Shown in pieces: positions 6,132-33,567 of a stretch of DNA of 42,072 bases. Numbering within the stretch: position 1 is the stretch's first letter; each line of letters starts with the position of its first letter. The position numbers and the translations under genes are program-made. The DNA is taken from the NCBI GenBank assembly GCA_012840125.1, contig DULZ01000043.1, forward strand, positions 1-42,072, given 5' to 3'. The notes below the pieces were generated by a model. That model had not been told where the DNA came from. It saw only the letters and a program-made list of their open reading frames with translations, and searched no databases. This DNA comes from Clostridia bacterium. GTDB taxonomy: Bacteria > Bacillota > DULZ01.

Positions 6132-6515
6132 TTACTCCACAATTAATTTCCCCCGCAGCTTCGGGTGGGCCGGGCTGCAGACCACGCTGCAAACATAGCT
6201 GAATTCACCTTTTCGTTCCGGTACGAATTCAACGGTGACCGGTTTGCCGGGTTTAATGATGCCGGCATCAACGCCCAGTTCCCCGATGATAAAGCCGTGG
6301 GTGACATCTTCGCTGATGAGGCGAAGTCTTACCGGTTGGCCTTCTTTCACCCTGATGGTCTTACGTGAAAAACCGCCTGCTTCATACTGCCGGATGACGA
6401 TATCGATGGTTTGGGGGTCTTTGAAAGCATTTTTGGCTAAGGTAGCCCCGACGGGAATGCCGATGACAAAGACAGCGATCAGCAGCGCGGCAACAAGTTC
6501 TTGTAGTTTACCCAC
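6132..6515 (-). CDS. Membrane-anchored CuA-like cupredoxin
   Basis: The 127-residue protein has one N-terminal hydrophobic helix (about 7-26) and then a cupredoxin domain like the periplasmic part of cytochrome oxidase subunit II. Likely copper ligands are His73 (VTHGF), Cys109, Cys113 and His117 (CSVVCSPAHPKL). The position of the CuA methionine is Leu120. A binuclear CuA centre could still form, since Met is the weaker ligand, but its properties would differ. The GTG start follows GGAGGTGGCGAA at good spacing. It is the last gene of the leftward copper/haem set, 14 bases after the polyferredoxin fusion. It probably acts outside the membrane as an electron carrier or copper-binding subunit. 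Confidence 0.82.
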   Translation of the reverse strand: MGKLQELVAALLIAVFVIGIPVGATLAKNAFKDPQTIDIVIRQYEAGGFSRKTIRVKEGQPVRLRLISEDVTHGFIIGELGVDAGIIKPGKPVTVEFVPERKGEFSYVCSVVCSPAHPKLRGKLIVE

Positions 6516-6529
6516 TTCGCCACCTCCTT

Positions 6530-8515
6530 CTACATGTGCAGGTAAAGGAACAGGGCCGCTACCCCGATTAAGAACACCGTCACCGGGAGCAGCAGTCTCA
6601 TCTTTTGCGCACCGGTTAAGGAGTACTTCGCCACCAGTTTGGCTCCTACCTTAGTGGAGTAGAACAAACCGGCCAGCAGAATGACGGCTTGGATGATGGG
6701 ATAGACCGAGGAGGCCATGGGCTTCCAAGGTACGGATTTCAAGCCGATTAAATCCCAGTGCCAGCCGAAGGGATCGCTGAGCACGTGTACCACATAAACA
6801 CCGTTGGTAAAGATGAAAGAGATGCTGAATGCCATCCAGCAGGCCAAGCCCATCGGTACCAAAACATAAGATAGGTTCACGAAGAGCTCGGAGAACGGGA
6901 TACCTTGTTCCTTGTTTTCCGTCGCGGCTGCGGTTTCCGCGGCTGCACTGCCGGCGGTGGCTTGTTCTTTGGTGCCGAAGATCAGCCCTTTAGTGATGAC
7001 CAACAGCTGCTGCACCGGGTAGAAGATATACTTAACCCCCGGGAATTGCTTTTCCGCCAATCCCTTGCCTACCCAAACGGCCAGGGAGAATAACACCGGT
7101 GTGACCACCAGGTTGGTCAGCAGGAATCCGATGGCATAGGCGAAGAAACCGGGCATTTCCAGGTTGGCCCAGGATTTCACGTCTCCCCAAGCGCTCAGGA
7201 AGACCAGCGAATAAACCAGCGAGCAGGTCAGCATGATAAAAGCTTTGTAAGCTTCATCCAATTTCTTGCCTTTGTCTACCAGCAAGTCATTGCCAAATCC
7301 GTGCCATACCAGCCGTACGTTGTTCTGGGAGCAGGTCTTGAAACATTCGGTACACAAACCGCAGTAAGCGTTGCGCCGGAGATTCCAGGGCACTTCCATC
7401 CAAGGGCATCCATAACCCTTGTCGCTGCCCATGATGCATTCTTTTTCTTTGTGAGCTCGGCAGACTCCCGCATCTTTAATTCTAACCCCGAAAGGAGCCA
7501 GCAGGGAGTACAAGCCGATAAAGCCGCCCACTGGGCAGACATAGCGGCAGAAAATGCGGCGACCGTAGATCAGGCTGAAAATGATCGCTAGAATAATAAA
7601 TAGGGACAGGACTACCGCCGTGGCCAGGGGTCGCGTCAGGATGATGCCGCTGAACAGGGCCACCAGCAGGAAGGACCAGTTTTGCAGCCAGATATTCTGG
7701 AAGCGCTTCGGCCATTTCAAGGCCAGGTTACGCGGTCTTTCGCGGCCCTTCACGATAAAGGCGCGGTGGTCCAGCCATTCTCCCGGAGCCGGCAAGGGGC
7801 ACATGGCGCACCAGATGCGGCCGCCGAGGGGCAGGAGGATTAAGATTAACAAAGCCCACCAGACGAACCAGACAAAAATAATGGCAAAGTTGGCATTACC
7901 TAAACTCGTACCTGCATAGCCGGCGAAGAGAATGATCACGAAGAATAAGGTGTTTACGGCAATCAAGGAAAACTGGAACCAGCGCTGCTTCAACAAGGTA
8001 TAAAGCCAACCGAATTTAGAGGTGAGATCAACAGGTTGGGATGACTGAGTCCCTTGTTCCAGGAGCCGGTTTCTCTTCCGGTAGATATAGCCCAAACTGC
8101 CAAACCCTACAAAAACGGCCAGCGCCAGGCTGATTGGCGTCGTGGTATTGGGTTCCACCACCAGCCGGCCGACCATGAAAGGATGCATAGGGCCGCAAAC
8201 TACACTACAACGGAAAGGAAAAGTGCCGGTTTTGTCAGCCACGAATTCCACCGTGGCGAATTCAGGGTCTTGCGGTTGGTCCTCCAGGAACAGGTCATAT
8301 TCTTCGATATATAAACCGTGGGTTACGTCTTCCGCAATCAGGTTGATGCGGACCCGGTCACCCTGGCGCACCTTGATGACATTTGGTTCGTATTCAAATT
8401 GCCTGGCATGGATGTTGATTTCCACTACGTTGTCAGCTCTGGCTTCTTGACCGGTGACAAGAAAAAGGCCTACCACCAGTAGCACCGAGAGGACACAAGC
8501 AAGCAGTCGCTTCAA
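6530..8515 (-). CDS. CuA domain fused to a NapH/NosR-like 4Fe-4S membrane protein
   Basis: This 661-residue protein joins two modules. Residues 1-28 are a signal sequence. Residues 30-122 form a cupredoxin with a full CuA set: His66, Cys103, Cys107, His111, Met114 (CSVVCGPMHPFM). After a membrane helix the rest is a multi-span polyferredoxin of the NapH/NosR/CcoG type, with CAMCP (236-240), CRYVCP (323-328) and a four-Cys cluster at 385, 388, 391 and 395 (CGLCTECFKTC). Further membrane helices follow to the C-terminus. NosR and NapH families move electrons from quinol across the membrane; here a CuA centre outside would be the natural acceptor or donor. The TTG start follows AAGGCGGTGA. The reaction served is unknown; no N2O reductase is nearby. 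Confidence 0.82.
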   Translation of the reverse strand: MKRLLACVLSVLLVVGLFLVTGQEARADNVVEINIHARQFEYEPNVIKVRQGDRVRINLIAEDVTHGLYIEEYDLFLEDQPQDPEFATVEFVADKTGTFPFRCSVVCGPMHPFMVGRLVVEPNTTTPISLALAVFVGFGSLGYIYRKRNRLLEQGTQSSQPVDLTSKFGWLYTLLKQRWFQFSLIAVNTLFFVIILFAGYAGTSLGNANFAIIFVWFVWWALLILILLPLGGRIWCAMCPLPAPGEWLDHRAFIVKGRERPRNLALKWPKRFQNIWLQNWSFLLVALFSGIILTRPLATAVVLSLFIILAIIFSLIYGRRIFCRYVCPVGGFIGLYSLLAPFGVRIKDAGVCRAHKEKECIMGSDKGYGCPWMEVPWNLRRNAYCGLCTECFKTCSQNNVRLVWHGFGNDLLVDKGKKLDEAYKAFIMLTCSLVYSLVFLSAWGDVKSWANLEMPGFFAYAIGFLLTNLVVTPVLFSLAVWVGKGLAEKQFPGVKYIFYPVQQLLVITKGLIFGTKEQATAGSAAAETAAATENKEQGIPFSELFVNLSYVLVPMGLACWMAFSISFIFTNGVYVVHVLSDPFGWHWDLIGLKSVPWKPMASSVYPIIQAVILLAGLFYSTKVGAKLVAKYSLTGAQKMRLLLPVTVFLIGVAALFLYLHM

Positions 8516-8565
8516 TTATGTCACCGCCTTTTCGACATCCGTGTTTCTATATTCTCTATATTCTG

Positions 8566-8603
8566 TTGAACAAAGTCGCCTTAAAAAAGGCGACTTTGTT
8601 CAA
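8566..8603. other. Perfect 15-bp stem-loop between peroxidase and polyferredoxin genes
   Basis: TTGAACAAAGTCGCC and its exact complement flank an 8-base A-rich loop. It lies in the 123-base gap between two same-strand genes. On the coding (minus) strand the loop reads as a T-run, but no T-run follows the stem. It may be an RNA processing or stability element, or a partial terminator. The 9-base direct repeat AGAATATAG occurs twice right after it on the minus strand. Confidence 0.7.
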
Positions 8604-8638: not shown

Positions 8639-9682
8639 TTAAGGTAAAGCAGGTTCTTCTACAATCGGCAGTGTGCCGCTGAGGGACTCTAAGAAAGCTA
8701 CCAGATCAGCTTTTTCTTGGTCTGTTAAGTTCAGCGGCTGCAGCAGAGGACTCTTGTTCGGATGCTCGCCTCCGCCGTTGTTGAAGAAGTCAACTACTTC
8801 TTCCAGGGTCTTCAGGCTACCGTCATGCATGTAAGGCGCAGTATGTCCAATACCCCGCAGAGCCGGTGTCTTGAACTTATCGGTATCTTCAGGGTTCCCG
8901 GTGAATTCGGCTCTACCCCTGTCAATGGAGGGATCGTTAACGATACCGACGTTGTAGAAGTTGTTGTCCGTTAAGCTGGGTCCATTATGGCAGTTGACGC
9001 AGCCGGCTTTGCCCACGAACAGGTCCAATCCTCTCTTAGCTTCCGCGGAAAGGGCTGCATCATCACCGGCTAAGTACTTGTCGAAAGCGGAATCGTTAAT
9101 GACGACGGTCCTTTCAAAAGCCGCAATGGCTTTGGCCACATTTTCGGGAGTAATGCTGTCGGGTCCGAAGACTTGCTCGAATCTTTCCACGTATTCGGGA
9201 ATAGCGCTCAACTTAGCCACCAATTGATCCAGGGGCAAGTTCATTTCCACTTCGCTCTGAATCGGCCCTAAGGCTTGTTCTTCCAAAGTCATGGCCCTGC
9301 CGTCCCAGAACTGGCTGCTCAGGTAACCTGCGTTGATGATGGTCGGGGAGTTACGATGACCTTGATGCCCTTGGAAGCCCAAGAAAGTTCTCCGGTTGTC
9401 GCTCCATCCTTTCGCAGGTTCGTGGCAGGAAGCGCAGCTAATGGTATCGTCGCCGGATAAGCGCTTGTCAAAATAGAGCATTTTACCTAACTCAATTTTT
9501 TCGGGAGTCATCGGGTTGTCCACAGGAATCGGCATGTCTCCTAAAGGTCCGAACACCACTTTGGGATCGAGTTTCACCGCTGAGGTAGTGGCGGGCGGAG
9601 TTGTGGTGGTTGAGCCGCACGCAGTCACCAGTAGGGACAGGGCTAGAATCCCTACGGCCAAAATCAAACCCTTCTTTGACAT
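8639..9682 (-). CDS. Di-haem cytochrome c peroxidase, lipoprotein (CCP/MauG family)
   Basis: The 347-residue product has a lipoprotein signal with lipobox LLVTAC (Cys22), so it should be anchored outside the membrane. Two c-type haem motifs are present, CASCH (83-87) and CVNCH (228-232), in the order and spacing of bacterial di-haem peroxidases. GHRNSPTIINAGY and the late TAPYMHDGSL region also fit the family. It would reduce H2O2 with electrons from a small copper protein or cytochrome; the cupredoxin lipoprotein next door is an obvious candidate. I chose ATG 9682, which follows GGGGGGTAAC, over a codon at 9700. MauG-like oxidation of a protein partner is an alternative role. Confidence 0.9.
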   Translation of the reverse strand: MSKKGLILAVGILALSLLVTACGSTTTTPPATTSAVKLDPKVVFGPLGDMPIPVDNPMTPEKIELGKMLYFDKRLSGDDTISCASCHEPAKGWSDNRRTFLGFQGHQGHRNSPTIINAGYLSSQFWDGRAMTLEEQALGPIQSEVEMNLPLDQLVAKLSAIPEYVERFEQVFGPDSITPENVAKAIAAFERTVVINDSAFDKYLAGDDAALSAEAKRGLDLFVGKAGCVNCHNGPSLTDNNFYNVGIVNDPSIDRGRAEFTGNPEDTDKFKTPALRGIGHTAPYMHDGSLKTLEEVVDFFNNGGGEHPNKSPLLQPLNLTDQEKADLVAFLESLSGTLPIVEEPALP

Positions 9683-9712
9683 GTTTCTGTTACCCCCCAT
9701 AAATGCTCTTCT

Positions 9713-10135
9713 TTACTCTTCGACAATAAACTTCATCTTAATCCAGGGATGGATTGTACACGTAGGTTCGTACTCGCCCGGCGTGGTGGGAGCCGTCCAT
9801 AATCTTCTCACCGTTTGTGACGGGTAGACGAGGATTTCGGGCAACCCGGATGCTGCATCCAAGAAATTGTGTTCACCGTCCGGGTCAGTATTCTTGATCA
9901 CGAACAGGATCTTCTCGCCAGTCTTCATGGTCACTTCGTTAGGAATGATGGTCTGAGGCGTAAACTCCAGTTCGATGACCCGGGCATCTTCAGCACCTTC
10001 CGGCACCGGTTCATCTAACACGTAATCGACGCCGGCTTCGGGAGCATCAGCCACCTCGTCCTGATTCCCTCCCCCACAGGCAGTCATGGTCAAGGCTACC
10101 AGCAGGCACAGCAGGAGGACTAGAAGCCGCTTCAT
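9713..10135 (-). CDS. Type-1 cupredoxin lipoprotein
   Basis: The 140-residue product starts with a lipoprotein signal, lipobox LTMTAC (Cys20), followed by a short linker and a single cupredoxin domain. Likely blue-copper ligands are His89 (GEHNF), Cys126, His129 and Met134 (CTIHPWIKM). This is the mononuclear pattern, unlike the CuA proteins of the same cluster. ATG 10135 is chosen because AAGGGGGTGA lies eight bases before it; a GTG at 10147 is possible. It is the first gene of the leftward set and directly precedes the peroxidase, so it is likely an electron carrier to it at the outer face of the membrane. Confidence 0.85.
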   Translation of the reverse strand: MKRLLVLLLCLLVALTMTACGGGNQDEVADAPEAGVDYVLDEPVPEGAEDARVIELEFTPQTIIPNEVTMKTGEKILFVIKNTDPDGEHNFLDAASGLPEILVYPSQTVRRLWTAPTTPGEYEPTCTIHPWIKMKFIVEE

Positions 10136-10180
10136 TTCCCCTCTCACCCCCTTTTTCAGTAATAATATTTGTAATAATTC

Positions 10181-10429: not shown

Positions 10430-11437
10430 ATGAAACGAATTTTATCTGTCGTTGTCATTCTTGGTTGCCTGTTTTTGTCGACTGCCTGCGGGACCAGGTC
10501 AGGGGGTGATGCCCCGCCGGTGCAGCAGCCTGTCCAGCTAACCAGTGAGAGAAGGCTCTATGTTTCCGCCATGTTTACTGATAAAGTAGTAGTCATTGAT
10601 TTGGACAGTCTGGCGATTGAAGCGGAGCAAAGGGTGGGGGAAACCCCTTACGGTTTGGCTGTGGACCGGGCCGGAAACCAGCTGCTGGCGGCCTGCTCCC
10701 TATCGAATGAAGTCTGGTGCCTGGACTTGACCACTTTGGAGACGAAAGCGGTCATCGCCGTGGACAGACTGCCTGCTTACATAACTATCGATGAAGAAAA
10801 GCGGCGGGCTTATGTGGGCAACTCGGGCAGCGACACCGTATCGGTAATCGACCTGGATGCCCACCGGGAGATTGACAGGATCCAAGTGGGCAAAGCGCCG
10901 GTGAACCTGGCATTATTGCCGGACCGCCGCCTGGCGGTTACCCTGCATGACGAGGGAACCATGGCCATGATTGATCTGGATAACCTGGAGGTGGTGAGCC
11001 GGCATCCCATTGCGGGCAACGCGGTGGGGCTGGCTTTCGACAGCCGGCAGGAACTGATCTATACGGGAGGGCATGGCTTGCTGGAGGATAATAATATAGT
11101 ACGTATTCATCCCTTGCGGGACCCGGATAACGTGGGGCAGCTTGAGACGCCGCTGATGCCTATTTACCTGGAGCTAACTCCGGATGGGTCCAAGCTACTG
11201 AGCTTGCACCACCGGATTAACCAGCTGTTCGTGATTGACCCGGCTACCGGTGTAATGCTAGGTGAAATGAATGCCGGTAAATCGCCTTTTTCCACAGCTA
11301 TCTGGGACGACGGGCGGATGGCGGCGGTGGCTAATATGGATTCCAATGAGGTCCAGATTGTGGACTTGGAGCATTTTGACACCGTGAAGTTCATCAAAGT
11401 GCTGGAAGGACCGGCTTGTATGGTGGTATTGGATTGA
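10430..11437 (+). CDS. YVTN-type beta-propeller lipoprotein
   Basis: The product has 335 residues and a lipoprotein signal with lipobox FLSTAC (Cys20). The rest is made of about 40-residue repeats with the pattern of YVTN/cytochrome D1-like propellers: VVIDLDSL, VDRAGNQLLAAC, AYVGNSGSDTVSVIDLDAHREI and KAPVNLALLPDRR. About seven blades can be counted. Such proteins often sit beside copper or haem oxidoreductases as accessory, scaffold or binding proteins, but no catalytic residues can be named here. No CxxCH haem motif is present, so it is not a nitrite reductase of the cd1 type. AGAGGCGG precedes the ATG, and it opens the rightward operon. Confidence 0.8.
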   Translation: MKRILSVVVILGCLFLSTACGTRSGGDAPPVQQPVQLTSERRLYVSAMFTDKVVVIDLDSLAIEAEQRVGETPYGLAVDRAGNQLLAACSLSNEVWCLDLTTLETKAVIAVDRLPAYITIDEEKRRAYVGNSGSDTVSVIDLDAHREIDRIQVGKAPVNLALLPDRRLAVTLHDEGTMAMIDLDNLEVVSRHPIAGNAVGLAFDSRQELIYTGGHGLLEDNNIVRIHPLRDPDNVGQLETPLMPIYLELTPDGSKLLSLHHRINQLFVIDPATGVMLGEMNAGKSPFSTAIWDDGRMAAVANMDSNEVQIVDLEHFDTVKFIKVLEGPACMVVLD

Positions 11438-11498: not shown

Positions 11499-11975
11499 AT
11501 GGAAACCCGTTGGAAAACCATCAGTATTATTGCCCTGGTTATCGCCTTAGGGCTGGTGCTGGTACCTAAAGTGGTGCCGGTCTGTAGCGCTATGGTGGCT
11601 ACGGCTTCCGGCGGGCAAATGCCCATGCGCTGCTTCTACACCTTTCGCGCCCAGTCTTTGTTTGCGGTGACGAGTGTGCTGGCTGCCGTAAGCTTGTTTG
11701 TGGTTCGCAGTCCCGACGGCCGCAAAACCGTTGGCGCCATGCTGGCGGTGTTAGGTATCATGATGGCCGTCCTGCCCCTGTCCGGCGTCATGGGGATCTG
11801 CATGCGCAGCGATATGCCCTGCCACACTACGGCCTTTTGGAATACTGTGCTGGCGGCGGCACAGATCCTCACCGGACTGGTGATTGTGTTTTCCAAGGTA
11901 CCGGCTCAGGCACAATCCTCTGTGATTAAAGAGATGCCGCGGCCCACGGGAGAGAAGATAAAATGGTTAGATTGA
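11499..11975 (+). CDS. DUF4418 family membrane protein
   Basis: The 158-residue protein has four hydrophobic helices. The Cys-containing stretches typical of DUF4418 are present: VVPVCSAM...MPMRCFYTFRAQ after the first helix, and GICMRSDMPCHTTAFW before the last. These Cys and Met residues lie on one side of the membrane and could bind metal or form disulfides; that is inference. DUF4418 genes are often followed by an FtsX-like ABC permease and ATPase, exactly as here, so the three likely form one system. AAGGAAGGATATC precedes the ATG. The stop overlaps the next gene by 13 bases. Confidence 0.72.
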   Translation: METRWKTISIIALVIALGLVLVPKVVPVCSAMVATASGGQMPMRCFYTFRAQSLFAVTSVLAAVSLFVVRSPDGRKTVGAMLAVLGIMMAVLPLSGVMGICMRSDMPCHTTAFWNTVLAAAQILTGLVIVFSKVPAQAQSSVIKEMPRPTGEKIKWLD

Positions 11976-13162
11976 TCATCCAGAGCTTGAGGCGCCGGAA
12001 ATTCCAGGCTTTTGCCAACTTGGTGGGTATCTCTGCCGGGGTTGCCGTTTTAATGGCGGTGGCTCTCTTTTATACCAGTATCGAGCAGGGCGTGGAACTG
12101 GGGCGGCAGCGCTTGGGAGCGGACCTCTTGGTCATTCCCAACAATGCCGGGCTGCCGCCGGAAACTGCCCTCTTTACCGGTGTACCGGCCAACTTTTACA
12201 TGCCCGAGAGCTTGAAGGAACAGGTGGCAGCCGTGCCGGGGGTGAAACAAGTGGCCGCCCAGTTCTATACCCAGACCCTGGATGAAAGCTGCTGTTCCAT
12301 CGGGGGACCTTACCGCCTCATCGGTTTTGATCCCAAGTCTGATTGGCTGGTGGCGGCCCTGTTAGGCGAAGAGGCGGCTCGCTCCCTGGGGGAGCGGGAT
12401 ATAATAGTCGGGGGCAACATCTCCGCCAGGGCCGGTCAGGAAATCGTGATCCTGGATGAATTATTTACCATTGCCCAGGTGCTGCCCCCGACCGGCACCG
12501 GATTGGATGAATCCATTTTGATGCCGATGGGATCAGCCAAGGCGCTGGCTAATACCAGTCCCAGTTTACAAGAAATCTGGCAAAAAGAAGGGCCGCCGGA
12601 TGCGCTGATTTCAGCGCTGCTGGTGGTGACGGAGAGTGGAGCCGATCTGGAAGCCGTGGCGGCGGCGGTGGAATCTTTAGGTCGTTACCGCGTCGTGCCT
12701 ACCCTGTCCCTTTTTGCCGCCACCAAGGAACAGTTTACCTTCTTGGTAGCGGTGGTGCTGTTGTGCGGGCTCCTGCTGGTGATCAGTTCTTTGCTGCAGT
12801 TGATTGCCAGGCTTTCCGCCATGGTTTGGGAAAGAAAGGCCGAATGGGGTCTTTACCGGGCCTTGGGAGCCAGCCGTTTACACCTCCTGCAACTCATCGC
12901 CGGGGAAGGATTGTTTCTCAGCCTGGGTGGTGCCGTCATTGGTCTTGCGGCGGGTGGGATTTTATATCAACTGGCCATAGCCTACTTGCTGTCGAAGCAA
13001 GCTTTCCCCCACGTGCCGCCGGATAAAGGTTTCGTCGCCTCTTGTGTGCTGCTGGTTTTGGGGTTTTTCGCCCTGGTCAGCGCAGCAGCCAGTGGGTTTT
13101 CTGCCAGGCAAGCCGCCGGTCTGGATCCGGCCGTTGCCATGGCTAAAGGGGACATTGACTAG
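11963..13162 (+). CDS. FtsX/MacB-type ABC transporter permease
   Basis: The 399-residue permease has one N-terminal helix (about 18-38), a large outside domain to about residue 255, and three C-terminal helices. This is the MacB/LolC/FtsX topology. EWGLYRALGASRLHLLQLI is the conserved cytoplasmic coupling region. The outside domain has a vicinal Cys pair (ESCCSIGG). Such transporters usually act mechanically on envelope substrates rather than import solutes. It overlaps the DUF4418 gene and is followed by its ATPase after five bases. Confidence 0.85.
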   Translation: MVRLIIQSLRRRKFQAFANLVGISAGVAVLMAVALFYTSIEQGVELGRQRLGADLLVIPNNAGLPPETALFTGVPANFYMPESLKEQVAAVPGVKQVAAQFYTQTLDESCCSIGGPYRLIGFDPKSDWLVAALLGEEAARSLGERDIIVGGNISARAGQEIVILDELFTIAQVLPPTGTGLDESILMPMGSAKALANTSPSLQEIWQKEGPPDALISALLVVTESGADLEAVAAAVESLGRYRVVPTLSLFAATKEQFTFLVAVVLLCGLLLVISSLLQLIARLSAMVWERKAEWGLYRALGASRLHLLQLIAGEGLFLSLGGAVIGLAAGGILYQLAIAYLLSKQAFPHVPPDKGFVASCVLLVLGFFALVSAAASGFSARQAAGLDPAVAMAKGDID

Positions 13163-13167
13163 AAGGG

Positions 13168-13872
13168 ATGGTGCGCCCTGTGGCTTTGCTTGTGGCGGAA
13201 CAATTGGAGAAGCGTTACGGCAGCGAAATTATTTTCCAAAACGTTTCCTTTGACTTGCATCCCGGGGAAGCGGTTTCAATTGTGGGTCCTTCCGGGAGCG
13301 GTAAAACTACGCTGCTCTTCTTGCTGGGTCTTTTGGCCCAGCCTTCCGGGGGGAAGCTGTGGTTGAACGGGATCTTGACCAATGCCCTTTCCGACCGGGA
13401 GAAATCCTCATTGCGGAATAAGAGAATCGGCTTTGTGTTACAAAACTCCCAACTGATCGGCACCTTGTCCGTGCTGGATAATGTCCTTTGTCCCGCGTTC
13501 TTTGCCAAGAAGTCTGCCGTCAGGGTGGCTAAAGCAAAGGAACTGCTGGCGTTAATGGGGTTGGAACACCGGATGCACCATTTGCCCAGCCAGCTGAGTC
13601 TGGGGCAAAGAAGAAGGGTGGCCCTGGCCAGGGCCTTAGTCATGGAGCCCCAGCTGGTCCTTGCCGATGAACCTACCAATGACTTGGACCCGGAACGGGC
13701 CGCCCAAGTGGCGGATTTCCTGTTCCGCTTGCCGGAACAAGGTATCTCTTTGGTGCTGGTGACCCATGATCCCGTGCTTGCGGCCAGGGCCCAGCGGGTT
13801 TATCAACTGGAGGATAGGATGCTGAAGCCGGCAAAGGAGAACCACGGCTGCCCGGCGCAGCGGGAACCTTAG
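13168..13872 (+). CDS. ABC transporter ATP-binding protein (LolD/MacB type)
   Basis: The 234-residue ATPase has Walker A GPSGSGKTT, a Q-loop in FVLQNSQLIG, signature LSLGQRRRVALARAL, Walker B LVLADEPTNDLDP and a switch His in THD. Its size and sequence fit the ATPases that pair with FtsX-like permeases such as the one just upstream. ATG 13168 is close to its GAAGGG site, and GTG 13180 is a possible alternative start. It completes the DUF4418-permease-ATPase unit and is probably translated together with it. Confidence 0.88.
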   Translation: MVRPVALLVAEQLEKRYGSEIIFQNVSFDLHPGEAVSIVGPSGSGKTTLLFLLGLLAQPSGGKLWLNGILTNALSDREKSSLRNKRIGFVLQNSQLIGTLSVLDNVLCPAFFAKKSAVRVAKAKELLALMGLEHRMHHLPSQLSLGQRRRVALARALVMEPQLVLADEPTNDLDPERAAQVADFLFRLPEQGISLVLVTHDPVLAARAQRVYQLEDRMLKPAKENHGCPAQREP

Positions 13873-17622: not shown

Positions 17623-20600
17623 TTGAAGCTCAACCGCCGGGAGTTTTTGAAACTTTCAGGCGCCGCGGGAGCGGGGTTGATGCTGGCGGAGTTGGGATTT
17701 GACGTGACTCCCGTTAAGGCATCAGCTGGCCAGTTCAAGTTGGACGGGGCCAGGGAGTTTAAATCCGTCTGCACTTTTTGTTCCTGCGGCTGCGGCATGA
17801 TCTGCCATGAACGAAACGGCAAGCTGATCAATTTGGAAGGAGATCCCGATCACATTATTAATGAAGGTTCCTTGTGCAGCAAGGGTGCCTCCATGTCGGT
17901 CCTGCCCAACTCAGACCAGCGGGTGACCACGCCTCTCTACCGGGCGCCGGGCAGTGATCGCTGGGAAGAAATCACTTGGGAAGAGGCAATCGAAAAAATT
18001 GCTCAGAAAATTATCAATATTCGCAATAACCACTGGATTAGCGAGGAAACCATCGGAGGCCAGACGTACAAGGTCAACCGCACCGATGCCCTGGCTTTCG
18101 TGGGGGGTGCCCAGAATAACAATGAGGAATGCTACTTGTTCACCAAAATGGCCCGTCTCTTGGGCAGCCCTTATGTAGAACACCAGGCTCGTCTCTGACA
18201 CAGTCCCACGGTTCCCAGTTTGGGAGCTTCCTTTGGTCGCGGTGCCATGACGAACCACTGGCTTGATTTGAAAAATGCTAAGGTGTTCTTAATTGAGGGC
18301 AGTAACTGTGCCGAAAACCATCCCATGTCCATGAAATGGATCATGCGGGCCAAGGAAAAGGGAGCCAAGATTATTCATGTGGATCCCCGTTTCACCAGGA
18401 CTTCTAAAGTGGCGGACATCTTCGCCCAGATTCGCCCCGGCACTGATATTGCCTTCTTAGGGGCAATTATCAATTATGTGTTGGAAAACAAGCTTTATGA
18501 TGAACAGTATGTTGTGGAGCATACGAATGCCTTGTTCCTCATCCGGGATGATTTTTCTTTTCATGAGGGATTGTTCTCCGGTTATGATGGGGCGGCATTC
18601 AAGTACGATACCTCTTCGTGGGGTTACGCTATGGATGCAGAGGGCAAACCCGTGAAGGCGGACAGCCTGGATGATCCCAGATGCGTCTTTAGCAAGTTAA
18701 AAGAATTTTTCAAACGTTATGATTTAAAAACAGCCTCATCCATTTGCGGTATTCCCGAAGAGACCATTCAATTAATTGCCGAGACTTATGCCAATAACCG
18801 GCCGGGCACCATCTTATACGCCTTGGGCATGACCCAGCACACCGTGGGTGTGCAGAATATCAGGTGTTTTGCCATTCTACAGTTGCTCCTGGGCAATATG
18901 GGGAAACCAGGCGGCGGGGTCAATGCCTTAAGGGGAGAGCCCAATGTGCAAGGGGCCACCGATATGGCGGTGCTCTTCCACATCCTGCCCGGTTACTTGA
19001 GCATGCCTAATCATGATGATCTGAATTTGGATATCTGGACTTCTAAATACGGCACTTTCCGCCGGACCTTTATGGTCAACCTGTTAAAAGGCTGGTTCGG
19101 CGAGCATGCCACACCGGAAAACGATTTCGGCTTCAACTTGCTGATGAAGAAAAACGGTACCGCCAACTACTCCATTTACCGCATTTTTGAGTCGGCATTA
19201 GAAGGCAAGATTAAAATGCTGTACGTCATGGGGCAGAACCCGGCGGTCAGTAACCCCAACTTGCATCTCGTGCACGAGGCCTTGGGCAAGTTGGATACGC
19301 TGGTGGTAGCGGACTTGTTCATTACGGAAACGGCCGCCTTCTGGGAAAGGCCCGGCGCGGATCCGTCCACCATTGACACGGAAGTCATCTTTTTACCGGC
19401 CAAGTCTTTCCTCGAAAAAGAAGGTTCCCTGACCAATTCCGGCCGGATGGTGCAGTGGCGCTATACCACCCTGGATACCCTGGGTCAGACCAGATCCGAC
19501 TTGGAAATCATTGATATGATTTTCTGCCGGATCCGGGAACTGGTAGCCGGCTCCACCGATGAGAAAGATCAGCCGATTTTAAAGGCGAACTGGAATTACG
19601 TCAGGGATAAACACATGGCGGAACAAGTGTTGAAAGAAATCAACGGCTATCACGTGGCTACCGGTCAACCGGTGAACGGCATCGGTGAACTCAAAGCGGA
19701 CGGTTCTACTTCCTCCGGGAACTGGATTTATGCGGGAGTGTTTGCCAACAATGTCAATTTGGCCAAGCGGGACGACGGGAAAAATGATCCGGGCGGTTTA
19801 GGCATTTATCCCAACTTCCGCTGGACCTGGCCCGGCAACATTCACATCCTGTACAACCGGGCTTCCTGCGATAAGGACGGGCGTCCCTATGATCCGGCCC
19901 AGAAACTGGTGTGGTGGGATCCCATCCTAGGCCGCTGGACCGGGTTTGACAATCCGGACGTGCCCAACGCTGCCCATGGGCCGGATACCCCCAACGGGCT
20001 GCGAGCTTTCCGGATGACCGGGGAAGGAGTGGGACGGCTCTTTGCAGCTCCTTACAAAGACCCGCAGCCGGATACCGTTTTGCCGCGGGATGCTTCCACC
20101 GTGCTGGCTGACGGGCCGCTACCGGAGTTTTATGAGCCCATAGAAAGCCCGACGGAAAACATCCTGCACCCGGCGGTACCTAACAATCCATGCTTGAAGT
20201 ACCCGCGGGTGGCCAGCCTGCAGCCCATCGGCCATGCCCAGGAGTATCCTTACGTGCTGTGTACCGCCACCGTGTCCGAGCACTGGTGCGGTGGAGCTCT
20301 TACCAGGAACGTGCCGTGGTTGAATGAACTGGTCAAGGAGACTTACGTGGAAATCCCCGTGACCCTGGCTGCCAAGCTCAATATCAAGAACGGAGACAGC
20401 GTCAAGGTTTGGTCAGCCCGGGGAGAGGTACTGGCGAAAGCCATGGTAACCAACCGGATTCATACCTTGATCATTAACGGCAAAGAAGTGGAAACCATTT
20501 GGATGCCGTATAACTGGGGCTATAAAGGTTTAAGCCAAGCCGCCAGTACCAACTTAGTGACCATCGATGCCGGTGACCCGAATACATGGATTCAAGAAAG

Positions 20601-20634
20601 CAAGGTTTGCATGGTCAACATGGTTAAGGTTTAG
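17623..20634 (+). CDS. fdhA: Formate dehydrogenase catalytic subunit, selenocysteine-containing
   Basis: One 1003-residue protein is encoded through an in-frame TGA at 18196-18198 (residue 192), read as selenocysteine. The context HQARL-Sec-HSPTV is the classic formate dehydrogenase active site, and both halves share one frame. A Tat signal (NRREFLKLSG) at the N-terminus points to export. A 4Fe-4S site uses Cys50, Cys53, Cys57 and Cys85. The rest is the Mo/W-bis-MGD domain, including GEPNVQGATDM and the C-terminal molydopterin-binding part. Length matches FDH-N/O type subunits. The TTG start follows AGGAGGG. With the iron-sulfur and cytochrome b subunits downstream, it should oxidise formate at the outer face and feed quinone. 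Without recoding it would be mis-split into 17623-18198 and 18220-20634. Confidence 0.95.
18196..18228 (+). promoter_or_regulatory. Selenocysteine UGA with SECIS hairpin
   Basis: The UGA is followed after 11 bases by GGTTCCCA-GTT-TGGGAGCT (18210-18228). All positions of the stem pair, two to three as G-U, and GU is in the tip loop. E. coli fdhF has its SECIS minihelix at the same 11-base distance, also starting GGUU and with GU in the loop. This should recruit SelB. Confidence 0.85.
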
Positions 20635-28361: not shown

Positions 28362-28428
28362 CCTATACCGGGTAGAACATAAAGTGGATTCTATCATTTT
28401 AATCATATGTGACAGAGGTGGTTGGGAT

Positions 28429-30822
28429 TTGACGGTCTTGTGTCTGGTGATTCTTCTTCCTTTCTTGTATGCAGTCCTAGTTCCCTTTTTCTATAGACAT
28501 GTCAAGCGGGTCCATACGGGCTGGTTTGTTTTGCCGGTGCCTCTCATCTTGTTTTTATACCTGGTTCGGAATCTGGGGCTTGCGCAAAACCCTTCTCTGG
28601 TGTCCTTGTCATGGATTCCTTCCTTACACATTAACATTACCCTGTATGCCGACGGTCTGGCCGTGCTGTTCGGGCTTTTGGTGACCGGGATCGGCTCCCT
28701 GGTGGTGTTGTATTCCGTCCATTACTTATCCAAGGAACGGGAAGAATTGCACAATTTTTATGTATATTTGCTGCTGTTTATGGGAGCCATGCTGGGGGTA
28801 GTCTTCAGTGACAATGTGATGGCCCTGTACCTGTTCTGGGAGCTGACCAGCATTGCTTCCTTCCTGCTCATCGGTTTCTGGTACCAGCGCCGGAAATCCA
28901 GAGCCGGTGCCCAAAAAGCCTTAATGATTACTGTTTTTGGCGGGCTGTCCTTATTTGCGGGTTTGTTGATCCTAACCAATATTACCGGTAGCTTTAGCAT
29001 CCGGGAAATGATTGCCAGGGGGGACCAAATTGCGGCCCACCCGCTGTTCCTGCCTGCTCTGGTGCTGGTCCTGCTTGGAGCATTTACCAAGTCGGCGCAG
29101 GTTCCCTTTTTCATCTGGCTGCCCGATGCCATGGAGGCGCCTACCCCGATTAGTGCCTACCTTCACTCCGCCACCATGGTGAAAGCAGGCATCTACCTGA
29201 TTGCTCGTTTGACGCCTATTTTCGGCGGGAGTTTTGCCTGGTTCTGGCTGGTGTCCGGCATAGGACTGGTGACTCTTTTGTGGGGCTCTTTTTCCGCTGT
29301 CAGGCAGACCGACTTAAAAGCCATGCTGGCTTACTCCACTATCAGCCAGTTGGGTATGATCATCTGCCTGCTGGGGCTTGGTTCCGTCGCTCTATACTAT
29401 GGGCCCGGGGCGGCCGCCGTTCCTTTTACCGCGGCCGTTATGGCTGCGATCTTTCATCTATTTAATCACTCCATTTTCAAGTGCTGCCTGTTCATGGTGG
29501 TGGGTATCATCGACCACGAGACGGGTACCCGGGATGTGCGTAAACTGGGCGGTTTAATGAGCAGTATGCCTTTGACTTTTACCCTAGCTGTTATCGGCAG
29601 TTTCTCCATGGCCGGGCTTCCACCCTTCAGCGGCTTTCTCAGCAAGGAAATGTTTTTTGCGGCGGTGGTGGCGGTCACGGAGCAGCATGTTTTTAGCCTG
29701 GATACCATGGGGATCATTTTCCCGGTGGTAGCCTGGCTTGCCAGTATTTTTACCTTTGTTTACTGCATGATCCTGGCCCTTAAGCCGTTTCTCGGCAAAC
29801 ACTATCCTTTGAAATTGGAGAAAAAAGCCCATGAAGCGGTTTACGGTATGGTGGTTCCCCCTGGAATCCTGGCCGTTCTGGTGATTGCCTTGTTCTTTTA
29901 TCCCAACCTGGCAGCGGAATACCTGTTCCTGCCGGTTCTCGCTTCCATCTTGCCGGATTTTGTGCCGGCGGGTTTTGGGCTGGAGCCCATCAGCGCCTGG
30001 CACGGCCTTACACCGGAGCTGGTCATGACCCTGGGGGTGGTAGCCGCCGGCACGTTATTATATCTCTCCGTCAGGAAATGGGCCAGGCTGTACGGTTACT
30101 TGCCCGGCCGCCTTAGTTTGAATAACCTTTACAACTACTTGTTAATCAAAATCGAGGAAGCCGCCGGGCGGATCACCGCCGGCTACATGACAGGCTCCCT
30201 GGTGGATTATCTGCGTTACATGTTTGCATTCTTTGTCCTGTTGGTGGGCGGCGTCACGCTGGCGCTTAAAGGGTTTGCTTTCGATTTTTCCGGGAACAGC
30301 CCGGTGAGCCTGTATGAGGCGGTCCTGGCCCTGGTGCTGGTGGGTGCGGCTTTCCTGGTCTTGTTTGCTACCAAGCGGCTGGTGGCCCTGGTGGGGCTTG
30401 GCATCATGGGCTACCTGGTGGCGGTGCTCTTTGTCGTGTTCCGGGCACCGGACCTGGCTTTAACCCAAGTGGTGGTAGAGACGGTCACCACCGTGATGCT
30501 GCTCCTGTGCCTCTATTTCCTGCCGGAGTTGAAGAAAGATATCGGGCCCTTGAAGGGGGATATCACGAACCTGGTCATTGCTGCCGGCGTGGGAGTCCTG
30601 GTGACGGTAATGGCCCTGTCGGCTTTCAGCCAGCGGCTCTTTGAGCCAATCTCCTGGTTTTATGAAGAGGCCTATATACGAGCGGGAGCCAAGAACATCG
30701 TCAATGCTATCTTAGTCGACTTCCGCGGTTTTGATACTATGTTTGAGATACTGGTGTTTACTATTGCCGGATTGGGTGTCTACACGCTGATTAAACTGCG
30801 CGGTGCCGGGAGGGAGAGATAA
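28429..30822 (+). CDS. mrpA: Mrp Na+/H+ antiporter subunit A
   Basis: The ~797-residue protein has about twenty helices, as in Bacillus MrpA. It carries the proton-channel signature of complex-I-like antiporters (SAQVPFFIWLPDAMEAPTPI, then HSATMVKAGIYLIARL) and the C-terminal MrpB-like domain (VFRAPDLALTQVVVETVTT). The start is TTG 28429 with AGAGGTGG before it; an in-frame GTG at 28384 is less likely. It is the first gene of a complete mrpABCDEFG set. The complex uses the proton gradient to expel Na+ and supports pH and salt tolerance. Confidence 0.93.
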   Translation: MTVLCLVILLPFLYAVLVPFFYRHVKRVHTGWFVLPVPLILFLYLVRNLGLAQNPSLVSLSWIPSLHINITLYADGLAVLFGLLVTGIGSLVVLYSVHYLSKEREELHNFYVYLLLFMGAMLGVVFSDNVMALYLFWELTSIASFLLIGFWYQRRKSRAGAQKALMITVFGGLSLFAGLLILTNITGSFSIREMIARGDQIAAHPLFLPALVLVLLGAFTKSAQVPFFIWLPDAMEAPTPISAYLHSATMVKAGIYLIARLTPIFGGSFAWFWLVSGIGLVTLLWGSFSAVRQTDLKAMLAYSTISQLGMIICLLGLGSVALYYGPGAAAVPFTAAVMAAIFHLFNHSIFKCCLFMVVGIIDHETGTRDVRKLGGLMSSMPLTFTLAVIGSFSMAGLPPFSGFLSKEMFFAAVVAVTEQHVFSLDTMGIIFPVVAWLASIFTFVYCMILALKPFLGKHYPLKLEKKAHEAVYGMVVPPGILAVLVIALFFYPNLAAEYLFLPVLASILPDFVPAGFGLEPISAWHGLTPELVMTLGVVAAGTLLYLSVRKWARLYGYLPGRLSLNNLYNYLLIKIEEAAGRITAGYMTGSLVDYLRYMFAFFVLLVGGVTLALKGFAFDFSGNSPVSLYEAVLALVLVGAAFLVLFATKRLVALVGLGIMGYLVAVLFVVFRAPDLALTQVVVETVTTVMLLLCLYFLPELKKDIGPLKGDITNLVIAAGVGVLVTVMALSAFSQRLFEPISWFYEEAYIRAGAKNIVNAILVDFRGFDTMFEILVFTIAGLGVYTLIKLRGAGRER

Positions 30823-31266
30823 ATGCGGTATAAGTCTGATGATATTATTTTACGGACGGTAACCAAGTTGGCGATATTCATCATCTTAGCTTTTGCCGTC
30901 TTCCTGTTCCTGGCCGGGCATCATAACCCGGGAGGCGGTTTCGTCGGGGGCCTGACGGTGGCCTCGGCAATTGTCCTCCTTCTCCTGGTCTTTGACATGA
31001 AAACGGTGAAAGATGGTTTGCCGGTGGATTACAAGGTGATGGCTTTTGCCGGGTTGCTCATCGCCGTGACCACCGGTTTGGGGGGCATGGTTTTCGGCCA
31101 GCCTTTCCTATCCCAAGCTTTCGGGCATATTGACCTGCCCTTGTTTGGTGATACTGAGTTTGCCACGGCGGTGATCTTCGATACCGGGGTGGCCCTGGCG
31201 GTGCTGGGGACGGCTCTGTCCATTATTTTCACGATAAGTGGTGATATACACACATGGAAACGTTGA
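30823..31266 (+). CDS. mrpB: Mrp Na+/H+ antiporter subunit B
   Basis: The 147-residue protein has four helices and the MrpB motif GHHNPGGGFVGGLTVASAIVL. Length fits the family. Its ATG follows the mrpA stop without a gap, with GGGAGGGAG inside the mrpA end. It overlaps mrpC by 13 bases. It is an essential membrane subunit of the antiporter complex. Confidence 0.93.
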   Translation: MRYKSDDIILRTVTKLAIFIILAFAVFLFLAGHHNPGGGFVGGLTVASAIVLLLLVFDMKTVKDGLPVDYKVMAFAGLLIAVTTGLGGMVFGQPFLSQAFGHIDLPLFGDTEFATAVIFDTGVALAVLGTALSIIFTISGDIHTWKR

Positions 31267-31592
31267 TGTCTGTGGTTATAGGTATCCTCTTTTTCATTGG
31301 CGTTTACCTGGTACTTTCAAAAAGCCTGCTGCGGATTATCCTGGGCGCTTCCATCATCTCCCACGGGGCCAATTTACTCATCATTACCATGGGAGGTTTA
31401 AAAACCGGCGGCCCGGCCCTCTTGGGGGAGAAAACCACGGTTTTCATGGACCCCATACCGCAGGCATTAATCCTGACAGCGATTGTGATTAACTTTGCCA
31501 TGACGGCCTTTCTCATGGTGTTAGCTTATCGCTCCTACGACGATTTAGGCACAGACAATGTAGAAGAGTTGCGAGGTATCGGTGATGAGTAA
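31254..31592 (+). CDS. mrpC: Mrp Na+/H+ antiporter subunit C
   Basis: The 112-residue protein has three helices and resembles NuoK of complex I, as all MrpC do. It shows GVYLVLSKSLLRIILGASII and PQALILTAIVINFAMTAF. It overlaps mrpB upstream and mrpD downstream. Confidence 0.93.
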   Translation: METLMSVVIGILFFIGVYLVLSKSLLRIILGASIISHGANLLIITMGGLKTGGPALLGEKTTVFMDPIPQALILTAIVINFAMTAFLMVLAYRSYDDLGTDNVEELRGIGDE

Positions 31593-33087
31593 TAACGTGC
31601 TTATATTACCCCTGCTAATACCGCTGGTGACCGGTATTATCATGGGCATCGCCAGGAACCGTATCGGTTTCCAGCGGCTGCTCGGCCTGTTTTCCCTGGG
31701 GCTGACCTTTGCTGTATCCCTATACCTGGTGCGGTTGGTGTCGAAACAAGGTGTGCAAATCCTGGAGTTAGGCGGTTGGCAGGCTCCTTTCGGGATTGTG
31801 CTGGTGCTGGACATGCTGCCGGCGCTGCTGCTGGCAACCGCCAGCCTGGTGGGTTTTGCTTGTCTTTTGTATGCTGTCCATTCCATTGGGGAGGACAAGG
31901 AACGGCATTACTTTTATCCCTTGTTTAACTTCCTCCTGGTGGGGGTCAACGGTTCTTTTCTCACGGGGGACATGTTTAACTTGTTTGTTTTCTTTGAGGT
32001 TATGCTCTTTGCCTCCTATGTACTCCTGGTTCTGGGGGGCACCAAAATCCAGCTGCGGGAGACGATTAAATATGCTTTCATCAATACCTTGTCATCCACC
32101 TTGTTTCTGGTAGGTATCGCCTATCTCTACGCCGTGGCCGGAACCTTGAACATGGCTCACTTGTCCCTGCGCATTGCCGAGGCGGGGCAGACCGGTATCT
32201 TGACCGGTGTGGCCGTGGTGTTCTTGATCGTGTTCAGTGTGAAAGCCGGCTTGCTGCTGTATTTCTGGCTGCCCGGTTCCTACATGGCCCCGCCGGGGGC
32301 CGTGGGGGCGATTTTTGCCGCCCTTTTGACCAAAGTGGGTATCTACGTCATCCTGCGGGTGTACACCTTGATCTTCTATCACCAGCCTGAGGTGACCCAT
32401 GGTCTCATGGCGGTGATGGCCGGTTTGACCATGCTGCTGGGAGGTTTCGGGGCCATTGCCCAGTGGGATATCCGGGGTATTCTGGTCTACAATGTCATCA
32501 TCAGTGTCGGTTTCATCATCAGCGGCTTGGTCTACGGCACAGCCGGTGCCCTGACCGGCGCCGTGTACTATACCATCCACGACATGGTGATGAAGGCGCT
32601 GCTGTTTTTGCTGGGCGGGACGGTAATCGCTATTACCGGTACCAGTAAGCTGAAAGCAATGAGCGGTCTCATTAGAAACCATACCTTGTTAGGCTGGCTG
32701 TTTTTCGTCACGACTTTAGCTTTAGCCGGTATTCCGCCCCTCAGCGGCTTTGTCGGCAAGGTGCTGATCATCAAAGAAGGTTTAGCCCTGGGAACCGGCT
32801 ATGGGGGCCTCTATGTCCTGGCGGGCATAGGCTTGCTGTCCAGCATGCTCGTGTTGTATTCCCTGCTGAAGATTTTCATCAACGGTTTTTGGGGTGAGAC
32901 GGTTTTGAGTGAGGAGATGGAAAAGGGAACGGACCGGGGGCTTTTGCTGCCCTGCGTGCTTTTAACGGCGGTTAGCCTGTTTATCGGGCTGGGGGCCGAG
33001 TTTCTCTATCCCTATGTGGATCAGGCGGTGACTTCCTTGTTGCACCCAGGCATATACATCGAAGCCGTGTTAGGTGAGGTGTTTTAA
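31585..33087 (+). CDS. mrpD: Mrp Na+/H+ antiporter subunit D
   Basis: The 500-residue protein has about fourteen helices and is NuoN/NuoM-like. It has the channel segments FSVKAGLLLYFWLPGSYMAP and LLTKVGIYVILRV, and IPPLSGFVGKVLIIKEGL. I chose ATG 31585 over the GTG one codon before it; it overlaps the mrpC stop. With MrpA it is thought to form the ion-conducting part. Confidence 0.93.
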   Translation: MSNNVLILPLLIPLVTGIIMGIARNRIGFQRLLGLFSLGLTFAVSLYLVRLVSKQGVQILELGGWQAPFGIVLVLDMLPALLLATASLVGFACLLYAVHSIGEDKERHYFYPLFNFLLVGVNGSFLTGDMFNLFVFFEVMLFASYVLLVLGGTKIQLRETIKYAFINTLSSTLFLVGIAYLYAVAGTLNMAHLSLRIAEAGQTGILTGVAVVFLIVFSVKAGLLLYFWLPGSYMAPPGAVGAIFAALLTKVGIYVILRVYTLIFYHQPEVTHGLMAVMAGLTMLLGGFGAIAQWDIRGILVYNVIISVGFIISGLVYGTAGALTGAVYYTIHDMVMKALLFLLGGTVIAITGTSKLKAMSGLIRNHTLLGWLFFVTTLALAGIPPLSGFVGKVLIIKEGLALGTGYGGLYVLAGIGLLSSMLVLYSLLKIFINGFWGETVLSEEMEKGTDRGLLLPCVLLTAVSLFIGLGAEFLYPYVDQAVTSLLHPGIYIEAVLGEVF

Positions 33088-33567
33088 TTGTCTATTCAAT
33101 TATGGCTCAATCTTTTTATCGCCTTCCTCTGGATGCAGATGAAGGATGAATGGAGTACCTTGAACTTCTTCTCCGGTTACCTGGTGGGCATGGGTTTGAT
33201 CTTCATGTTCCGGCGCTTTTTTGCTCAACCCTTTTACCTAGGTAAGCTGTGGGCCGCTTTTAAGCTATTTATGATTTTTGTTAAGGAGCTGGTCTTGTCC
33301 GGCATCTTTGTCATCCAGCAAACCCTGATCCCGAAGCCCACCTATAAAGTCGGCATTGTACCCCTGCGGACGAAATTGGAAAGCGATGTGGAATTGACCT
33401 TGATTTCTCTCATGATTACTCTGACCCCAGGTTCTGTCGTGCTGGGGATCTCCCCGGACCGGACCACGTTGTACGTGCATGCCATGGGGGTGCCTGATGC
33501 CACCGATACGGTGATGAGAGCCAGGGATGCCTTTGAAGAGGCCATCATGGAGGTGACCAGGGGATGA
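33088..33567 (+). CDS. mrpE: Mrp Na+/H+ antiporter subunit E
   Basis: The 159-residue protein has N-terminal helices and a soluble C-terminal half, with the conserved LISLMITLTPGSVVLGISPD and a late HAMGV. The start is TTG directly after the mrpD stop, preceded by GGTGAGGTG. It overlaps mrpF as ATGA. Confidence 0.92.
   Translation: MSIQLWLNLFIAFLWMQMKDEWSTLNFFSGYLVGMGLIFMFRRFFAQPFYLGKLWAAFKLFMIFVKELVLSGIFVIQQTLIPKPTYKVGIVPLRTKLESDVELTLISLMITLTPGSVVLGISPDRTTLYVHAMGVPDATDTVMRARDAFEEAIMEVTRG

Follow-up and report, generated by a model that had tools for sequence, protein, structure and literature searches.

The window, a 42,072-nucleotide stretch of DNA from a Clostridia bacterium (contig DULZ01000043.1), carries on its minus strand a gene (6530..8515) whose product joins a CuA domain to a polyferredoxin resembling NapH and NosR. 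The evidence tips slightly in favor of this fused protein being a modular quinol dehydrogenase that belongs to the NapH/NosR superfamily, ends in CuA and would here feed a peroxidase, and the neighboring haem peroxidase is its likely customer. Relatives in several phyla adjoin different redox enzymes located outside the cell membrane, and the CuA-polyferredoxin is therefore probably a reusable electron-delivery part. We rate the chances as evenly balanced that these proteins form a previously undescribed family of respiratory quinol dehydrogenases, modular in build, with electrons leaving through CuA, a predicted Cys3His [4Fe-4S] cluster and at least four unrelated terminal enzymes, namely NosZ, members of the type II DMSO-reductase family, reductive dehalogenases and the di-haem peroxidase. 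NapH, NosR and RdhC are already known and a NapH-NapG fusion has been published; a search of freely accessible published papers returned no description of a CuA-polyferredoxin, nor of the CuA exit, the conserved His or the exchange of partner enzymes reported below.

Architecture of the fused protein

The reading frame is open throughout, starts at a TTG codon and encodes 661 aa including a signal peptide. A putative Shine-Dalgarno sequence rated as good, AAGGCGGTGA (8521..8530, minus strand), lies 5 nt upstream of the start. Since the two halves are separate genes in most relatives, a frameshift or an assembly error might have merged them; this has next to no chance of being correct, as 15 other assemblies from several phyla carry the same CuA-polyferredoxin fusion in the same domain order, the frame is unbroken, and AlphaFold2 (74-row alignment) returned a confident single-chain model (mean pLDDT 90.2, pTM 0.91). 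The independent fused assemblies effectively refute an artefact. Ligands conserved in 80-82 relatives, 16 fused members, the AlphaFold2 model and the CuA fold found among PDB structures together argue that the fusion is a product of neither chance nor assembly.

The CuA domain (residues 28-122; 8150..8434, minus strand) carries the complete ligand set H66, C103, C107, H111 and M114 at exactly the positions given by an earlier, sequence-only reading. It matches Pfam Cupredoxin_1 (3.5e-8) and the NCBIfam model of the NosZ C-terminal CuA domain (~5e-13), the latter ahead of CoxB. The best PDB matches by sequence are CuA constructs and NosZ, and the 50 Foldseek matches listed against the PDB consist of CuA-containing proteins only. 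In the relatives, H66 is kept in 80/80 and C103, C107, H111 and M114 in 81/81. The domain thus combines the cupredoxin fold with the His, Cys-x3-Cys, His, Met signature of COX2/NosZ-type CuA, and a dinuclear mixed-valence copper centre is predicted. Subunit II of cytochrome c oxidase and NosZ have CuA domains of the same fold with all five ligands, but the domain studied here is joined to neither a haem-copper oxidase nor a CuZ enzyme. Instead, a transmembrane helix (residues 125-146; 8078..8143, minus strand) ties it to the membrane module. The L-NosZ model (NF052460) also matched the CuA genes and the nearby propeller gene, though at the level of single domains and far below its 700-bit cut-off, and was rejected.

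The proposed fusion of CuA to a NapH/NosR-like module is borne out by the domain matches: the polyferredoxin part matches Fer4_5 at 2.9e-8, and NapH models are weakly significant on residues 223-401. At 19 bits against a curated cut-off of 234, however, the protein does not qualify as NapH proper. It does show the membrane helices, CxxCP/CxxxCP motifs and cytoplasmic Fe-S motifs of the superfamily. Two CxxxCP-type motifs had been claimed; one is such a motif (C323-C327-P328; 7532..7549, minus strand), present in 82/82 members, while the other is a CxxCP (C236-C239-P240; 7796..7810, minus strand), present in all 80 relatives in which the column is filled. In place of the single 4Fe-4S cluster suggested earlier, two Fe-S motifs conserved across members were found between C352 and C395 (7331..7462, minus strand): C352-x2-H355-x4-C360-x9-C370P, where a His replaces a Cys, and C385-x2-C388-x2-C391-x3-C395. 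Each of the seven cysteines is kept in 82/82 members. Position 355 is His in 78 of the 82 members and Cys in four, and Cys also occupies it in ten inspected outgroup polyferredoxins, which are more distant and of other kinds. All-cysteine ligation of both [4Fe-4S] clusters, looked for as a mark of the superfamily, is thus not what the motif with His355 indicates; by the usual two-cluster ferredoxin pattern, the first cluster is predicted to be a Cys3His [4Fe-4S] cluster.

Hydropathy and positive-inside charges place both Fe-S motifs in the cytoplasm and the CuA domain outside, and the same reading revealed no centre that would bridge them. To our knowledge, none has been identified between the inside Fe-S clusters and the outside in NapH or NosR either. 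The description of the protein as a self-contained membrane wire consequently went too far. In NapH, which shares the multi-span membrane module and the CxxxCP motifs, the Fe-S motifs likewise lie on the cytoplasmic side (PMC5449189). Its outside partner is the Fe-S protein NapG, whereas the window protein carries CuA; a natural NapH-NapG fusion provides a precedent for a NapH module joined to an outside carrier (PMC5449189). NosR shares the CxxxCP motifs, the two Fe-S clusters and the presumed role of electron donor in the membrane with the window protein, but has an outside FMN domain where the latter has CuA. No match to an FMN-binding domain was found in the window protein and no NosZ in the genome, which sets it apart from NosR proper. 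By analogy with the superfamily, the fused protein would oxidize quinol.

Relatives and their partner enzymes

A GTDB scan with the single sequence found no relative. The same scan with a two-row alignment pairing the window protein with that of G021 yielded at least 83 relatives, of which 80 were kept. Judged by record titles, most belong to Chloroflexota and others to Omnitrophota, Rokubacteria, Acidimicrobiia, Desulfobacterales, Planctomycetota, Lentisphaerae, Bacillota and one bin labelled Woesearchaeota. In sampled genomes, members occurred in 13 of 400 from Chloroflexota (the phylum of G399) and in few of 399 from the window's own phylum. The 82 polyferredoxins examined comprise 16 that are fused to CuA, 65 that are immediately preceded by a CuA gene and one at a contig edge, so that the CuA partner is fused or adjacent in 81/82 members; many of the split pairs overlap by 4 nt. 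Fusion is not the defining state of the family, the two halves being adjacent genes in most relatives. A tree test rejected the fused members as a single clade (p 7e-5), and joining or splitting must therefore have recurred, as expected for a functional unit. A second CuA-like gene follows downstream in 70 members and is often fused to cytochrome c in Chloroflexota. In a tree of the family, the window protein has a long branch and clusters with the clade of fused members that are linked to dehalogenases (98% SH-aLRT).

By adjacency, partner enzymes were assigned to reductive dehalogenases (four loci), the type II DMSO-reductase family (ten) and NosZ (three), and the unit of CuA and polyferredoxin, with or without the second CuA, appears to be reused with all three. 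The reductive dehalogenases of L057, L058, L061 and L067 score 244-259 bits with TIGR02486 (cut-off 160). These four loci share the order cupredoxin, reductive dehalogenase, one or two small genes and fused CuA-polyferredoxin, followed by DUF4418 (in L067 by a gene for a PCu(A)C chaperone) and a MacB permease. Where the flank is long enough, an ABC ATPase comes next in L057 and L067 and a propeller in L058 and L067, and the second CuA-like gene, present in three of the loci, also follows. All four are from Chloroflexota and their dehalogenases are of the twin-arginine type; rdhA is present more than once in both L061 and L067, and L058 and L061 encode TatC and a multi-haem cytochrome of the NapC/NrfH type with 10 CxxCH motifs nearby. 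In reductive dehalogenase operons, the NosR-like membrane protein RdhC/PceC adjoins RdhA (PMC5928378). RdhC has FMN and is devoid of Fe-S motifs, whereas these four loci have the CuA-polyferredoxin beside rdhA and showed no RdhC-like gene in their gene maps. CuA potentials lie at ~+250 mV, which suits NosZ and peroxidases; the cobamide of reductive dehalogenases has too low a potential for such a donor. Delivery from CuA to the dehalogenases is accordingly a poor energetic fit, which counts against the reading of a CuA-terminated delivery unit. In a Planctomycetota MAG (L135, 7987-9375), the haem-b (gamma) subunit of a type II DMSO-reductase-family enzyme is fused to CuA in one 462-aa ORF.

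The NosZ-adjacent relatives are G021, L051/G190 and L088, and they were rejected as a single clade (p 2e-8). Their spread on the rooted tree means that NosZ could be the ancestral partner, and the window protein might accordingly be a NosR equivalent for N2O reduction whose nosZ has been lost or is not covered by the draft assembly. This is improbable, given that NosZ has no match anywhere in the 97%-complete genome, that the nearest relatives are linked to dehalogenases and that nosZ is missing from the examined flanks of most relatives. The concern that homologues might all sit beside nosZ with an ordinary NosR role is answered by the presence of nosZ beside only three of the relatives examined, and a NosR-only role was rejected.

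A PCYCGC protein is encoded just upstream in 46 of the 75 family rows of the tree, the largest group (Anaerolineae, L062-L136), often accompanied by genes for DUF1573 and a histidine kinase/response regulator. Because this largest group has no assigned acceptor, it counts against reading the protein as a CuA-tipped delivery unit. The CuA unit could alternatively serve copper-site assembly or redox sensing, with DUF4418, the MacB permease and the ABC ATPase as export partners: these three recur with it, the PCu(A)C copper chaperone adjoins one relative, and Anaerolineae repeatedly show the genes for PCYCGC, DUF1573 and a histidine kinase. A chaperone would, however, be expected beside any CuA protein and is thus non-specific, and the repeated adjacency to terminal redox enzymes speaks for electron delivery, as does the haem-b subunit that is fused to CuA, making assembly or sensing an unlikely role. 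In three further loci (L017, L018, L019), inspection by eye indicated a cNMP-binding domain, a sigma-54-type AAA domain and a NosR-like membrane Fe-S part apparently in one chain of ~800 aa.

Gene neighborhood and putative electron path

Genes for a cupredoxin, a di-haem peroxidase, the CuA-polyferredoxin and a second CuA-like protein lie on the minus strand of the window, and a divergent set on the plus strand encodes a propeller, DUF4418, a MacB permease and an ABC ATPase. The sequence-only reading was right that neither N2O reductase nor nitrate reductase is encoded near the fused gene, but its verdict that the acceptor is unknown overlooked the candidates on the same strand. The type-1-like cupredoxin (9713..10147) has a signal peptide ending in TAC-G and is a probable lipoprotein; relatives of it adjoin the reductive dehalogenases described above. 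The second CuA-like protein (6132..6515; 127 aa, GTG start) retains both Cys and the His. Its axial Met, kept in 65 of 70 members, is replaced by Leu in the window protein and by Val in those of L057, L058 and L067. On the plus strand, the beta-propeller (10430..11437), likewise a probable lipoprotein with a signal peptide ending in TAC-G, is followed by the DUF4418 membrane protein (11499..11975), whose homologue lies directly 3' of the fused gene in relatives, by the MacB/FtsX-type permease (11963..13162), a homologue of which belongs to the relatives' cassette, and by its ABC ATPase partner (13168..13872), assigned by domain matches. The window and the dehalogenase-linked loci have the cupredoxin, DUF4418 and the MacB permease in common, with the peroxidase at the position of the dehalogenase, and the window locus thus looks like a dehalogenase-type cassette in which a peroxidase has been substituted.

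The peroxidase gene (8639..9700, minus strand), located 124 bp upstream of the CuA-polyferredoxin gene, encodes a 353-aa member of the di-haem cytochrome c peroxidase/MauG family with a lipobox (VTAC), a CCP_MauG domain (8.6e-61) and two CxxCH motifs. Between the two genes lies a perfect hairpin with a stem of at least 15 bp (8568..8601; fold z -10.6), found as a single copy in the genome; with so strong a hairpin, a common transcript is not assured. A loop His and a C-terminal Met are haem ligands of classical bacterial peroxidases. Both columns hold Phe in a pairwise alignment with 1nml, and the top NCBIfam matches are MauG and MbnH, albeit below their cut-offs. The di-haem neighbor could therefore be a MauG/MbnH-like modifier, in which case the CuA-polyferredoxin would feed or drain something else. 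We consider this quite unlikely, as the closest matches of known structure are cytochrome c peroxidases (1nml, 4.8e-64, against ~1e-23 for MauG structures) and oxidative modifiers do not need an electron supply.

The most economical reading is a path from menaquinol through CuA and cupredoxin to the peroxidase. Menaquinol would be oxidized in the membrane module, and its electrons would arrive at the outward-facing CuA along a route common to NapH and NosR; the lipoprotein cupredoxin, the second CuA-like protein or both would relay them to the lipoprotein peroxidase, which would reduce H2O2. The order of domains, the invariant CuA and Fe-S residues, the neighboring genes, the conserved cassette and the exchange of the partner enzyme between relatives are observed; the quinol donor, the exit through CuA, the direction of flow and the peroxidase as acceptor are all points that we infer. 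Such a path is energetically reasonable for H2O2 and N2O. The path is further favored by the invariance of the CuA ligands and of the Fe-S and CxxCP cysteines, and by a genome that has cytochrome-c assembly genes and no NosZ, RdhA (sub-threshold matches only) or CuA oxidase. The sole haem-copper match in the genome is NorB-like, with a NorC-like cytochrome encoded next to it, and ResB is absent from the MAG. No second pairing of a CuA-polyferredoxin with a peroxidase was found, so that the peroxidase link comes from one locus; the class of the window's genome comprises three genomes only and thus offers no close relatives that could add another case. For the E. coli YhjA-type quinol peroxidase, a periplasmic multi-haem enzyme, electron supply from quinol has likewise been proposed (PMC10301912). 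YhjA is proposed to use its own haems, whereas the system in the window would use copper and Fe-S centres.

Elsewhere in the window, formate dehydrogenase-N alpha (17623-20634; 1003 aa, with an in-frame TGA at residue 192 read as selenocysteine) is followed by FdhE, a cysteine-desulfurase/Sec-lyase-like gene and the beta and gamma subunits, extending to 24233. It is a plausible quinone reducer upstream of the fused protein. Subunits of an Mrp-type Na+/H+ antiporter are encoded at 28384-33567.

A CuA-tipped version bears on how NosR and NapH carry electrons from quinol to the outside of the membrane: strongly colored and visible by EPR, a CuA exit within the chain itself would open this transfer to direct measurement. 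The exchange of partners would in addition suggest how reductive dehalogenases and molybdoenzymes of uncultured Chloroflexota and Omnitrophota could be supplied with electrons.
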